DNA from: Pseudolabrys taiwanensis
GTDB lineage: Bacteria > Pseudomonadota > Alphaproteobacteria > Rhizobiales > Xanthobacteraceae
Direction: 5' to 3'
DNA: 64,000 bases
Assembly: GCF_003367395.1 (NCBI RefSeq)
Contig: NZ_CP031417.1
Location: 5,295,501 to 5,359,500, forward strand
Below, in pieces: positions 15,063 to 45,807 of this stretch. How positions within the stretch are numbered: the stretch's first letter is position 1; every line of letters begins with the position of its first letter. The translations under genes and the position numbers were made by a program. Below the pieces are notes generated by a model. That model was not told where the DNA came from and searched no databases. It saw only the letters and a list, made by a program, of their open reading frames with translations.

Positions 15063-15213
15063 TAACGTAGCTTCCATCGATCGACGGTTGCTCCCGTGGA
15101 TGGCCGGGACAAGCCCGGCCATGACGGGGAGGGGCGTGCCTCAAGTTGCAGTTTGTTCGGCAGGGCGCTGCCCCATCGTCATGGCCGGGCTTGTCCCGGC
15201 CATCCACGTTCTT
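15063..15213. repeat. Left copy of the ~150-bp duplicated repeat unit flanking a GIY-YIG gene
   Basis: It contains two family A palindromes in inverted order: CGTGGATGGCCGGGAC..CATGA at 15095-15124 and TCATGGCCGGGC..CATCCACG at 15179-15208. Between them is a 39-nt core (GTGCCTCAAGTTGCAGTTTG, then TTCGGCAGGGCGCTGCCCC) identical to the one in the right copy at 15482-15636. Its left edge carries a degraded copy of the first bases of the neighbouring GIY-YIG gene (minus strand ATGGAAGCTACGTT versus ATGGGAGGCTACGTT). Confidence 0.85.
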
Positions 15214-15496
15214 AAAGAAGAGCTTCGAAGAGATCATTCCATTGTGGATTGGACTGAAGAATGAGCCGCACTTTCCAGGTTCTGGTCCAGTGCTTCATGT
15301 TCTTCTCCCGCTGGATGGCGATACGGATATCGTCATAAATTTCGAAGTAGACGAGCCGCTTCAAGCTATATGTTTTCGTGAATCCTTTGACCGCTCCTTC
15401 TCGATGTTCCGCGACGCGCCGTACAAGATCGCTCGTGACACCCACATAAAGTGTCCCGTTCGAACGATTGGTGAGGATATAAACGTAGCCTCCCAT
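15212..15496 (-). CDS. Solitary GIY-YIG nuclease domain protein (copy 1)
   Basis: This 94-aa single-domain protein of the small GIY-YIG family (COG2827/YhbQ-like) has the GIY equivalent GYVYILT at the start, the YIG equivalent LYVGVT, the conserved Arg region DLVRRVAEHREG, then KRLVYFEIYDD and IAIQREKNMKHW. Such proteins are predicted endonucleases; no substrate is established for this type. The ATG at 15496 gives the family-typical MGGYVYIL start. Longer starts would translate the flanking palindrome as MAGLVPAIH. No good ribosome binding site is visible. The gene is bracketed by inverted family A palindromes: one overlaps its stop and the other starts about 18 nt upstream. It interrupts the thioesterase-murB interval. 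Confidence 0.82.
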   Translation of the reverse strand: MGGYVYILTNRSNGTLYVGVTSDLVRRVAEHREGAVKGFTKTYSLKRLVYFEIYDDIRIAIQREKNMKHWTRTWKVRLILQSNPQWNDLFEALL

Positions 15497-15636
15497 AGGC
15501 CTATGATTGCTTCCGTGGATGGCCGGGACAAGCCCGGCCATGACGTTGGGGGGCGGCCGTGCCTCAAGTTGCAGTTTGTTCGGCAGGGCGCTGCCCCGTC
15601 GTCGTGGCCGGGCTTGTCCCGGCCATCCACGTCCTT
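15482..15636. repeat. Right copy of the ~150-bp duplicated repeat unit flanking a GIY-YIG gene
   Basis: This copy starts inside the first codons of the GIY-YIG gene and repeats the architecture of 15063-15213: inverted palindrome, identical 39-nt core, second palindrome. A further family A half-arm (GTCCGGGACAGGGCCGGGCA, then TGAC) follows at about 15665-15688, just before murB. Confidence 0.85.
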
Positions 15637-15699
15637 TAGGCATTGAGCAACAAAAGAGCGGAGGTCCGGGACAGGGCCGGGCATGACGGTGGCGACTTA

Positions 15700-16629
15700 A
15701 TGACCTTCCCCGACATCACTGCCAATTTGAAATCGCGCCTGCCGAATTTGCGCGGGCGGTTGCTCGCCAATCAGGCGCTCGGCGAGATGACCTGGTTTCG
15801 CGTCGGCGGGCCGGCGCAGGTGCTGTTCATGCCGGAGGACGAGCACGATCTCGCTTACTTTCTGCGCAACACGCCGCGCGATATTCCGGTTACCGTCATC
15901 GGCGCCGGCTCCAACCTGATCGTGCGTGACGGCGGCGTCGAAGGCGTCGTCATCCGGCTCGGCCGCGGCTTCAACGAGGTGCGGATCGACGAAGCGACCC
16001 ATCGCGTCACCGCCGGCACCGCCATGCTCGACGTGATGGTCTCGCGCGCGGCGCAGAAAGCCGGTGTCGCGGGACTCGCCTTCCTCTCCGGCATTCCGGG
16101 CACGATCGGCGGCGCGCTGCGCATGAACGGCGGCGCCTATGGCGGCGAGACCAAGGACATTCTCATCGAAGCGCGCGGCGTCGATCGCGACGGCAATCTG
16201 CGCAACTACAGCAACGCCGACATGGGCTTCTCCTATCGCCATTGTTCGGTGCCGGACGACGTCGTCTTCGTCACCGCGACGTTCCAGGGCAAAGCCGGCG
16301 ACCCCGAGACCATCGCCGCCGAGATGGCCGCGATCAAAGCCAAGCGCGAGGCGAGCCAGCCGCGCAACAGGACCGGCGGATCGACCTTCAAGAATCCACC
16401 CGGCAAGAACGCGTGGAAGGTGATCGATGAAGCCGGTTGCCGCGGCCTGAAGATCGGCGACGCGCAGGTCTCCGAGCTGCATTGCAACTTCTTGATCAAT
16501 CTCGGCAGCGCGACCGCGACCGACATCGAGACGCTGGGCGAGACCGTGCGCGCCCGCGTGAAGGCGCATTCGGGGACCCAGCTTGACTGGGAGATCAAGC
16601 GCATCGGCGTCGGCGGCCCGCGGCCGTGA
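15700..16629 (+). CDS. murB: UDP-N-acetylenolpyruvoylglucosamine reductase MurB
   Basis: The 309-aa FAD enzyme reduces UDP-GlcNAc-enolpyruvate to UDP-MurNAc with NADPH. It shows [14 protein letters not shown], the FAD-binding segment [34 protein letters not shown] and the catalytic serine motif GSTFKNP. ATG 15700 is chosen because the upstream part of the frame lies in the repeat. Its stop overlaps the GTG of the next gene (GTGA). Confidence 0.96.
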
Positions 16630-17831
16630 GCACGCAGGAATTGCGGGCGGTGCCGAACCGCTGGTTCATCCTCACGGTGCTGTTCCTGGCGCGCACCGCG
16701 ATGGGCCTGCAATTCCAGACCGTGGGGTCGGTCGGGCCGATCCTGGTCGACGGCCTCGGCATCGACTATGCGAGCGTCGGCCTGCTGATCGGGCTTTATC
16801 TCTTTCCCGGCATCTTCATCGCCTTGCCCGGCGGCATGTTGGGCGAGCGCTTCGGCGCCAAGTCGATCGCGCTGATCGGCCTTGTCCTGATGATTGCCGG
16901 CGGCCTCGTCATGGGAATGAGCGCGTGGTTTCCCGCGCTTGTCGCCGGCCGGCTCCTCAGCGGCATCGGCGCCGTGCTGATGAACGTGATGCTGACCAAG
17001 ATGGTCGCCGACTGGTTTGCCGGACGCGAGATGGCGACGGCGATGGCGGTGCTGGTGACGAGCTGGCCGCTCGGCATCGCGCTCGGTCTGCTCGGCTTCG
17101 TCCCCATGGCCGCGGCTTTCGGCTGGCCGGCGGTGATGACGCTCAGTGCATCGGTCTGCGCGTTGTCGCTCGTGGCGATCGCGGTGTTTTATCGCGAGCC
17201 CGCGACGCACGCGGCACGGTTCCGAGCCAGTCTCTCGCTCAGTCTGTCGAAACGCGAATGGGTCCTGGTCTCGTTCGCCGGAATCGTATGGGGCACCTAC
17301 AACGTCGGTTACATCCTGCTGGTCAGCTTCTTGCCCGGGCATCTCATCGACGGCGGCTATGGTCTTGCGCGCGCCAATGCCCTGGTGAGCTGGCTCGGTT
17401 GGGGATTGATCGTGATGGTGCCGGTCGGCGGCCTGATCGCCGATCGCCTGCGCTGGCCCGACGCCGTCATAGCAGCGGGCTTCATCATCGCCGGCGCCGC
17501 GACGATCGTCCTCGCTGCCGATCTCACGCTGCTCTTTCCGGCTTTCGTCCTGATCGCATTGACCGTCGGTTTGCCGGCGGGGCCGATCATGACCTTGCCC
17601 GCCGCCGCGCTCGCGCCGCAGAACCGCGCCACCGGCATGGGGATCTACTTCACCTGGTATTACGCGCTGATGGCCGCGATCCCACCGCTCGCCGGCTTCG
17701 CGCGCGACGTCACGCACAGCAGTGCGGTGCCGGTCCTGTGCGCGGCGGCCGTGCTGGCGGCGGCGCTCGCCGTGCAGGTGCTGTTCCTCATCGTGTCGCG
17801 GCGGTGGCCCGCGCCGCACCCCGCGCGCTAG
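16626..17831 (+). CDS. Major facilitator superfamily transporter
   Basis: This 401-aa protein has about twelve hydrophobic segments and the MFS loop 2-3 motif [12 protein letters not shown] (residues about 70-82). The [20 protein letters not shown] segment recalls the CynX/nitrate-nitrite type carriers. The substrate is unknown. The GTG start overlaps the murB stop, so it is probably co-transcribed with murB, which is unusual: in related genomes ddlB normally follows murB. It begins the first accessory block inside the dcw cluster. Confidence 0.85.
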
Positions 17832-17907
17832 CCTGGCTCTAGCGCGACGGCGGAGAACGGCGCTACAAAGGTGCCGACAAAACCAAGAACACTAAGGGAG
17901 AGAGACG

Positions 17908-45248: not shown

Positions 45249-45250
45249 CC

Positions 45251-45422
45251 GTCATTCCGGGGCGGCCGCCGAAGCCCGAAGGGCGAGGCGGACGAACCCG
45301 GAATCCAGAAACGAGGATGGGCGCGCGTTGCTGGATTCCGGATCGCCGCTTGCGCGGCGTCCGGAATGACAGGATGAGGCTGTCATTCCGGGGACGGCCG
45401 GAGGCCGGAACCCGGAATCCAG
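45251..45422. repeat. Cluster of family B repeats between recN and a GIY-YIG gene
   Basis: Three copies: GTCATTCCGGGGCGGCCGCC..GGAATCCAG (45251-45307), an inverted CTGGATTCCGGAT..CCGGAATGAC (45331-45370) and GTCATTCCGGGG..CCCGGAATCCAG (45382-45422). The last ends 9 nt before the stop of the GIY-YIG gene. The inverted pair may also terminate recN transcripts. Confidence 0.85.
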
Positions 45423-45431
45423 CAGCGGGCA

Positions 45432-45707
45432 CTATCGTATGATTTCCGGATAGAGGTCTTTCCAGTCTGGATTCTCTTTCTCGATGAGTTCGATTTTCCA
45501 AGCTCGACGCCATTTCTTGAGTTGCTTCTCGCGCTCGATGGCGTTTGTGGGATCGTCGTAGATCTCAAACCACACCAGCCGACGGACGTCGTAGGTTGAG
45601 GTAAAGCCGGGAAGCAATTTTTCTCTATGCTGATATGTTCTGCGGACGATGTCGCGGGTAACGCCTAAATAAAGCGTCCCTTCTCTGCGGCTTGCGAGGA
45701 GATACAC
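45432..45707 (-). CDS. Solitary GIY-YIG nuclease domain protein (copy 2)
   Basis: This 91-aa protein is homologous to the product of 15212-15496. It shows the GIY equivalent (YVYLLASR), the YIG equivalent LYLGVT, RDIVRRTYQHRE, RRLVWFEIYDD and IEREKQLKKWRRAWK. The annotated start is GTG at 45707, which omits the conserved Phe-Tyr; an ATT at 45716-45714 would give the family start (I/M)FYVYLL. This copy sits between inverted family B palindromes, with 9 nt between its stop and the downstream copy and 27 nt between start and upstream copy. Confidence 0.8.
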   Translation of the reverse strand: MYLLASRREGTLYLGVTRDIVRRTYQHREKLLPGFTSTYDVRRLVWFEIYDDPTNAIEREKQLKKWRRAWKIELIEKENPDWKDLYPEIIR

Positions 45708-45734
45708 GTAAAAAATGAGAGTCCGTGCTCGCCT

Positions 45735-45807
45735 CTGGATTCCGGGTTCGCTCGCTACGCTCGCGCCCCGGAATGACTAAGGGTAATATGCCGCGCCCTG
45801 GAATGAC
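45735..45807. repeat. Family B repeat upstream of the second GIY-YIG gene
   Basis: CTGGATTCCGGGTTCGCTCG through GCGCCCCGGAATGAC (45735-45777) is an inverted copy relative to 45382-45422. A partial copy (CCCTGGAATGACG) ends near 45807. ligA begins 11 nt later. Confidence 0.8.

Follow-up and report, generated by a model that had tools for sequence, protein, structure and literature searches.

Solitary GIY-YIG nuclease genes bracketed by inverted palindromic repeats, a candidate counterpart of the RAYT/REP system

Described repeat systems and their enzymes

In the RAYT/REP system, the tree of the enzyme and that of its REPs agree, and the REPs are scattered through genomes both singly and as inverted doublets, as described in the accessible text of PMC2817692 and PMC3116915. 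The CGTC REPs carry a CGTC tag, an 8-9 bp stem beginning with AT, a 4-5 nt loop and a CCA tail. According to the accessible text of Di Nocera et al. 2013 (PMC3733652), they include dRS3 of Neisseria and RPE-4/RPE-6 of Rickettsia, occur widely, most of all in Alphaproteobacteria, and "apparently lack a dedicated transposase"; the word GIY-YIG is absent from that text. Here, we describe solitary GIY-YIG nuclease genes bracketed by such palindromes, and our best reading is that they form a counterpart to RAYT/REP that is based on a GIY-YIG enzyme and acts on CGTC REPs. RAYTs with GTAG-tagged REPs (REPtrons and REPINs) are HUH/Y1 tyrosine transposases, whereas the enzyme here is a GIY-YIG nuclease and the tag is CGTC rather than GTAG. 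For a GIY-YIG nuclease, unlike a RAYT, a covalent intermediate is not expected. Slx1 works with Slx4 in DNA repair; in contrast, the enzyme here is a lone domain of ~90 residues tied to repeats, which also sets it apart from UPF0213-type nucleases. In free-standing GIY-YIG homing endonucleases and the GIY-YIG domains of Penelope retroelements, the nuclease promotes the spread of an element. However, the cassettes described here hold no intron and no reverse transcriptase, and whereas a homing endonuclease has one cognate site, there are here tens to hundreds of non-allelic palindromes. In searches of the open-access PMC literature, which do not prove priority, we found no paper linking GIY-YIG genes to REPs.

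Two nuclease genes and their repeats in the window

The preliminary description of the window, the whole 64,000-nt stretch of DNA that was analyzed, had singled out two small GIY-YIG genes, and profile searches confirmed both. Copy 1 (15212-15496, minus strand) encodes 94 residues and copy 2 (45432-45707, minus strand) 91 residues from a GTG codon; their PF01541 matches of 58.6 and 53.9 bits both exceed the cut-off, and both genes are solitary. Many homologues of copy 2 begin a few codons upstream of its GTG. In the alignment, the invariant columns include Y2, Y13, G15, R23, H27, E60, and N79, and both the GIY-YIG motif and the Arg, Glu, and Asn that serve as catalytic residues in GIY-YIG nucleases are conserved, in copy 1 as elsewhere, which places the enzyme in the GIY-YIG nuclease superfamily. 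The best match among solved folds was Slx1, and no Y1 transposase model was found among the profile matches of the two proteins. The genes are under purifying selection, with median dN/dS values of 0.067 and 0.095 in two row sets, namely nine clade-1 genes (without broken or truncated copies and without L031) and 22 recN-ligA genes (a single stop codon in L012 being skipped; 99 of 231 pairs were saturated and excluded). The assignment of both loci to essential-gene clusters held in substance. Copy 1 neighbors a thioesterase-family ORF, which follows a Mur ligase, and on its other side a MurB-type gene; copy 2 neighbors a RecF/RecN/SMC-family gene and one for NAD-dependent DNA ligase.

Both copies share the layout that had been reported, with family A palindromes at copy 1, family B at copy 2, and inverted REPs around the gene whose CCA tails point to the gene and whose GTC tags point outward. 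At copy 1, the REP on the 3′ side (15178-15206, plus strand; DNA hairpin fold z −4.98) turns its tail to the stop codon, and REP mapping placed its partner on the 5′ side (15516-15544, minus strand) with the tail facing the start codon; the two have the sequence GTCATGGCCGGGCTTGTCCCGGCCATCCA in common. At copy 2, the corresponding REPs lie at 45382-45421 on the 3′ side (plus strand, hairpin z −3.36) and at 45736-45777 on the 5′ side (minus strand, hairpin z −2.57) and read GTCATTCCGGGG...CCCGGAATCCA. The gaps to the stop and start codons, described as about 0-30 nt, measured 5 and 19 nt for copy 1 and 10 and 28 nt for copy 2 (counted from GTG). A palindrome said to overlap a stop codon was not found, the nearest ending 5 nt away. 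These REPs show the traits of the CGTC super-family, that is, a CGTC-type tag, AT at the stem base of the palindrome and a CCA tail, and their tag reads GTC(AT) and is not of the GTAG type of RAYT-associated REPs. Compared with the CGTC REPs as given in the accessible text of PMC3733652, family A fits and family B differs by longer loops. Stem pairing was kept despite sequence change: 88% of outer positions pair, as opposed to 57% with shuffled partners, in a test on 42 distinct strings picked among the matches listed, with five outer stem positions left free. For the long terminal repeat of the cassette in genus g64, hairpin energy was no better than that of shuffles (z −0.15).

Further REPs surround the two genes. 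Left of copy 1, an outer family A REP (15097-15125, minus strand) pairs with that at 15178-15206 as a REP-spacer-REP unit with the tags facing each other, and right of the gene another (15601-15629, plus strand) lies behind the same spacer. With this spacer present on both sides, copy 1 is bracketed by a direct repeat as well. We rejected the spacer as a genome-wide element, since spacer plus REP had full-length matches at only two places in the genome, both within the copy 1 locus (97 and 100%). The window also holds doublets without a gene, tails inward. Two are of family B, at 45251-45370 (made of 45251-45307, plus strand, and 45332-45370, minus strand) and 47959-48064, and REP mapping placed others at 11900-11988, 13128-13214, 49306-49386, and 54022-54137.

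Repeats at nuclease genes beyond the window

The observation extends far beyond the window. In an even sample from the host's order, which includes copy 1, an inverted or direct repeat was shared across the flanks of 82/108 GIY-YIG genes compared with 2/52 intergenic control ORFs, and the flanks of 26 of the 108 genes lacked any common repeat. Inverted flanking repeats with a score of at least 14 were found at 68/108 of these genes and at 4/348 other ORFs of the same loci. GIY-YIG genes thus bear out the contrast with other intergenic genes that the preliminary description had anticipated. Flanks also shared a repeat at 12/17 genes in the same class and at 14/20 in other classes (four duplicate rows removed by hand; 16/24 raw). 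Among the 27 testable of 30 ParE control loci, 200-bp flanks yielded no inverted and one direct repeat, and three to four direct repeats were found when one flank was widened to 600 bp. Together, the control ORFs and the ParE loci reject chance or general intergenic clustering as an explanation. We used the order sample as the main statistic because the named loci, 80 kept of 301 relatives, are not independent; 23 of the 80 occupy the recN-ligA position, as copy 2 does, and at least 12 share one other site. The repeat-sharing test was preferred because our first strict REP detectors overlooked many elements, leaving 57/111 and 34/110 order genes without a REP. With the orientation detector, which found no REP at 38/196 genes, 118 genes had a REP on both sides, and their tails pointed inward at 67, outward at 21, and in mixed directions at 30. 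At one locus (L004), a REP doublet is present on just one of the two sides; its clade says little as a negative control since the search returned the query genome alone.

Nuclease clades were not combined at random with palindrome families, another point on which the earlier expectation was upheld. A second, divergent GIY-YIG clade pairs with an unrelated palindrome family, which was found at 9/11 of its loci compared with 1/111. Among different-family pairs, nuclease and repeat similarity correlated with a Spearman coefficient of 0.195 (permutations: mean ∼0, SD 0.030), and divergent paralogues within one genome had a repeat in common in only 5/58 pairs. The tail CCATAACC occurs mostly with clade 2 and the tails CCATTTCA/CCATTGAT mostly with clade 1. 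On the tree of the CGTC clade, the 6-letter REP core required 31 label changes, where shuffled labels gave 41.9 and the minimum is 11. The pairing is therefore sharp between two deep clades and loose for the 6-letter core inside the CGTC clade; enzyme clade and REP sequence co-vary as in RAYT/REP, partially so for this core.

Repeat number tends to follow the gene, with exceptions. With kinship ignored, the median was 9 REPs per genome in 71 genomes with a GIY-YIG match and 0 in 50 without, yet 10 of these 50 held at least five REPs, up to 39 (G022). Genomes with an intact clade-2 gene (n = 11) carried a median of 13 clade-2-type tails and the 49 others a median of 1, again ignoring kinship; however, 15 of the 49 carried at least four such tails, up to 27, and one genome with an intact gene had only three. 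To account for REPs in genomes without the gene, one has to suppose that the gene was lost, that copies have decayed or that another enzyme is involved. In one genus, the cassette's terminal repeat had 26-58 matches in five genomes with the gene and none in two without (kinship ignored), and among the copies listed over a dozen were identical across at least 61 bp. These near-identical copies carry the terminal 65-70 bp of the cassette, tail included.

Whole cassettes with both ends present occur at unrelated sites within one genome, and deleted, doublet and solo forms were found as well. At one Bradyrhizobium-like site, the cassette is absent, inverted, of another clade or cut to one palindrome. 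In genus g64, forms of 371-392 bp are internally deleted cassettes, with a gene remnant matched in L420 and recognized by eye in L426 and L440. Not all doublets are plain internal deletions, as those of one genome (G106) have spacers that, judged by eye, are unlike the cassette interior. Seven weak matches were found between the g64 cassette and plasmid records. No target-site duplication was evident by eye in 17 elements, and weak similarity continues beyond the tag, so the exact cassette ends are uncertain. A search for an empty site in G381 found only one partial flank in 20 stretches (∼366 kb). At recN-ligA, the gene has been inherited in place over long times, and the cassette there is therefore not a fast transposon.

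Proposed mechanism, alternatives and significance

We consider it probable that solitary GIY-YIG nucleases are the cognate enzymes of their flanking palindromic repeats and that REP-gene-REP is an autonomous cassette that spreads REPs, with the doublets and solo REPs as its putative gene-less relatives. Of the initial proposal that the nuclease acts on its own flanking repeats, the bracketing and the clade pairing stood, while we infer mobilization by the nuclease itself from the copy-number contrasts, with their exceptions, and from the full-length and deleted forms. The enzyme would recognize the REP hairpin, formed in single-stranded or cruciform DNA, plus the outer tag (GTC) and the gene-side tail (CCA...), and may cut the base of the hairpin, much as Slx1, its relative in structure, cleaves branched DNA. 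DNA hydrolysis by GIY-YIG enzymes is not known to pass through a covalent intermediate, and strand transfer would therefore need host help. The cut ends would then be copied or rejoined through host replication and repair, by which REPs would spread, whole cassettes would occasionally move, and some would collapse to a single palindrome. REP cutting by the protein, the position of the cut and the mode of copying are what we infer from these comparisons.

Alternatively, the nuclease could be a host-serving resolvase that trims or resolves REP hairpins and cruciforms, such that genomes bearing the gene tolerate more palindromes and the adjoining REPs are regulators or the oldest substrates. The long retention of the gene in place, its low dN/dS and a branched-DNA nuclease as best structural match agree with this, and the copy-number contrasts would also be expected of an enzyme that makes palindromes tolerable. 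By itself, however, this account explains neither two-ended cassettes at unrelated sites in one genome, nor a site at which cassettes are found inverted or replaced, nor the near-identical copies of the cassette's terminal 65-70 bp, and we regard it as unlikely. Homing-like spread, in which the nuclease cuts gene-less REPs as its target and repair of the break from a cassette copy inserts the gene, with the REPs spreading by other means, seems to us quite doubtful. Free-standing GIY-YIG homing enzymes do exist, the cassette state at the groEL-lepB site changes very often (18 changes; shuffled mean 17.9), and in two genera solo palindromes tagged at both ends lie at sites that hold cassettes or their derivatives in other genomes; these may represent either empty sites or what deletions left behind. 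Yet such insertion would split one REP, whereas two complete REPs surround the gene, and the link between REP number and gene is left unexplained. Finally, the cassette could be a MITE-like unit that an ordinary transposase mobilizes in trans, with the nuclease gene as passenger. This would fit the inverted repeats at the termini and the forms with internal deletions, which resemble IS-derived elements, but is very improbable given the same nuclease family as passenger across classes, a second nuclease clade with unrelated palindromes, and CGTC REPs without transposase gene association beyond a few fortuitous cases in the accessible text of PMC3733652.

Taken together, the evidence points to this nuclease as the partner enzyme that a widespread class of bacterial repeats had lacked. 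We see about an even chance that these cassettes constitute a novel class of mobile element in bacteria, with a free-standing hydrolytic GIY-YIG nuclease as its sole enzyme. This nuclease would cut the palindromic termini and spread them by way of the host's replication and repair, with no strand transfer; the class would comprise at least two nuclease clades whose repeats are unrelated and would give rise to much of the CGTC-type intergenic palindromes in Proteobacteria. With a candidate partner nuclease, the question of a transposase for CGTC REPs becomes directly testable with a ∼90-residue protein and a hairpin of 30 nt. Should the enzyme mobilize REPs, the lifestyle of RAYT/REP would have arisen convergently in a second, unrelated fold, and a likely function would follow for many genes annotated as "GIY-YIG nuclease family protein".

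Flanking repeats of the GIY-YIG genes

The preliminary description held that copy 1 (15212-15496, minus strand) and copy 2 (45432-45707, minus strand) are bracketed by palindromes in a single layout, and this was borne out: on both sides of both genes, the REP tag (GTC side) points outward and the tail (CCA side) points toward the gene. A strict REP scan across the window yielded 25 hits. Four surround copy 1, two adjoin copy 2, and 12 make up six pairs without a gene; the remaining seven are mostly chance-like. All six pairs have their tails inward, the same as the REPs of copies 1 and 2. 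The window is part of a 5.59-Mb, one-contig genome with seven PF01541 matches. Inspection by eye shows palindromes to either side of five of them, all small solitary genes. One match sits within an 830-residue frame, and L004, a match of a different clade, is unbracketed with a REP doublet downstream only.

To compare these flanks with chance, we took the 200 bp preceding and the 200 bp following each gene, the latter as reverse complement or in direct form, and recorded the score of their best local match; an inverted repeat was called at a score of at least 14. A search with copy 2 gave 301 relatives, and in the loci of the best 80, 69 of 79 testable GIY-YIG genes had an inverted flanking repeat versus 8 of 378 other ORFs of the same loci. 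Because these loci cluster at a few syntenic sites, we sampled the host's order evenly. Copy 1 was matched at E 1e-6 or better by 71 of 121 genomes, including a few that match only the divergent L005 clade. Of this sample, 110 loci were read (30 returned by the search itself and the 80 highest-ranked entries of the list, with partial or weaker places omitted). Inverted repeats flanked 68 of 108 testable GIY-YIG genes, and inverted or direct repeats flanked 82. For the 52 control ORFs, each having intergenic space before and after it, the corresponding counts were 1 and 2. ParE toxin loci, used as a further control, had inverted repeats in 0/27 and direct repeats in 1/27. In a phylum-wide sample, 41 of 200 genomes had a match; a repeat common to both flanks was found for 12 of 17 genes in the host's class (17 of 22 listed places read) and for 14 of 20 testable genes in other classes (21 of 23 places read, four duplicate rows removed by hand).

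Orientation was assessed for 196 genes with a detector accepting any tag-anchored stem, which found REPs on both sides of 118 genes, on one side of 40 and on neither side of 38. The two-sided genes divided into 67 with both tails in, 21 with both tails out and 21 + 9 mixed, placing tails-in well over one quarter (p about 3e-13, kinship ignored).

At the position where many homologues begin (…M(A)(F/Y)YVYLL), copy 2 reads LIFYVYLL and lacks an ATG (45432-45719); its start is therefore another codon such as GTG, or else its expression is lowered. The copy 1 frame is open upstream through the REP (15212-15643), giving the peptide MAGLVPAIHG, and automatic annotation could extend the protein through the repeat. 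At a Lysobacter locus (L080, 5271-5543), the nuclease frame continues into REP repeats, yielding a C-terminal tail of repeated RGNDD-type peptides.

Movement, decay and replacement of cassettes

Genome G105 carries three REP-gene-REP cassettes at unrelated sites, two of which are 88% identical over 466 bp starting at the left REP's CTTCGTC tag. The elements of its genus (g64) include forms of 502-519 bp, most with a recognizable gene, forms of 371-392 bp, doublets of 186-224 bp and solos of 65-68 bp. At one site, G355 has a 392-bp form where G259 has a lone palindrome tagged at both ends.

In Bradyrhizobium-like genomes, the gap between genes that we take to be groEL and lepB was found empty or with tag-to-tag solo palindromes, clade 1 cassettes forward, clade 2 cassettes inverted, tandem intact and decayed cassettes, internally deleted cassettes or GTAG-type doublets. 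On a tree of the lepB side (34 rows), these states changed 18 times versus 17.9 when shuffled, and two fully supported sister genomes carry different clades in opposite orientation. Whole-allele exchange between strains could add to this turnover. GTAG-type and CGTC REP super-families occupy the same spot: L287, L297 and L303 hold GTAG-type doublets where other genomes hold CGTC cassettes, and L287 and L303 have an apparent CGTC REP remnant beside the doublet.

Copy 1's gap contains neither gene nor REP in the relatives L199, L200 and L215; in the relative L201 it has the same gene (80% identity), flanked by a single REP on either side. The recN-ligA position of copy 2 recurs in 23 of the 80 loci (best 80 of 301 relatives). 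Copy 2 is an old resident, unlike copy 1. In the relative G132 (L211, 800-1500), two family A-like REPs bracket another small ORF before a MurB match, where the host genome has a GIY-YIG gene.

Pairing of nuclease with repeat

The expectation that nuclease clades covary with palindrome families held sharply between the two deep clades and loosely within the CGTC clade. Of 11 loci with divergent L005-type genes, 9 have a CCTCATCCTGAGG...CCTCGAAGGA-type palindrome within 350 bp, and by eye L412 makes a tenth with a variant of it. That palindrome occurs beside 1 of 111 genes of the CGTC clade and at none of 555 random places. The strict detector found no CGTC REP at the 11 loci. This clade is the sharpest case of a clade having its own repeat.

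In gene pairs from different host families, repeat similarity rose with protein similarity (Spearman 0.195; 500 permutations gave a mean of about 0, sd 0.030 and highest value 0.090). Divergent paralogues of one genome (similarity 0.4-0.6) had a common repeat in only 5 of 58 pairs. On a 55-gene tree with many unresolved forks, the 6-letter REP core changed 31 times versus 41.9 when shuffled (0/200 shuffles as low). Taken together, these three results indicate that the link is genuine yet loose. Clades 1 and 2 of Bradyrhizobium-like genomes share a stem and differ in the tail, which is mostly CCATAACC in clade 2 and mostly CCATTTCA and CCATTGAT in clade 1. Other repeat types were seen as well: GIY-YIG genes at L390, L391 and L402 lie near GTCATTYCGACC...GARAAATCTT and GATCCCTCGRCT...GGGATGACA type repeats, not classed with CGTC-1 to CGTC-4, and the palindromes in the flanks of L193, around GCCCCGGATCAAGTCCGGGGC, are long and do not resemble CGTC REPs.

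Copy number tracks the gene, with exceptions. For 5-nt-loop REPs counted with outer stem positions free (reversed control, 0 hits), the median per genome was 9 where a match was present (71 genomes) and 0 where it was absent (50 genomes; kinship ignored), although 10 of these 50 hold at least 5. The maximum is G022, with 39 REPs and zero GIY-YIG matches, a candidate for recent gene loss or a different enzyme. For tail CCGGAATCCATAACCAC, the median copy number is 13 where a clade 2 gene is intact (11 genomes) and 1 in the 49 others (one-sided p 2e-5, kinship ignored). Against this contrast, 15 of the 49 hold at least 4 copies, three of them with decayed clade 2 genes (27, 13 and 7 copies) and further ones with no clade 2 gene assigned, and one carrier has only 3. 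In five gene-bearing g64 genomes, the cassette terminal repeat was matched at least 54, at least 49, at least 58, 33 and 26 times, the first three being lower bounds because part of the first-look candidates were left unscored; two g64 genomes lacking a match at E 1e-15 had none (kinship ignored; the genus may include further genomes). Over 61-71 bp, many copies have an identity of 97-100%.

Relation to known systems and a working model

The REPs of family A conform to the CGTC super-family of Di Nocera et al. 2013 (PMC3733652), with a tag, a stem of 8-9 bp that has AT at its base, a 4-5 nt loop and a CCA tail; family B has the same ends but a longer loop. The system is like RAYT in architecture and enzyme-repeat pairing but differs in enzyme and tag, which places it outside RAYT. 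The word stem "palindrom" is absent from the 2006 GIY-YIG survey, and we found no report of a GIY-YIG/REP pairing in open-access full texts, a scope excluding preprints and most subscription papers.

According to PMC8266576, RAYT cuts REPs near the stem-loop, and the tag is thought to guide the site. Our working model is a GIY-YIG nuclease that would share this cutting logic with a different fold. The nuclease would meet REP hairpins on single-stranded DNA, or extruded cruciforms, read the tag and tail, and presumably cut at the hairpin or cruciform base; the ends would then be copied or rejoined through host replication and repair. Tag-to-tag solo palindromes, present in two genera, are consistent with arms of the two flanking REPs having been joined via enzyme-made breaks or slippage. 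The outcome would be either a benefit to the host, with the enzyme as a resolvase, or chiefly a benefit to the repeats.
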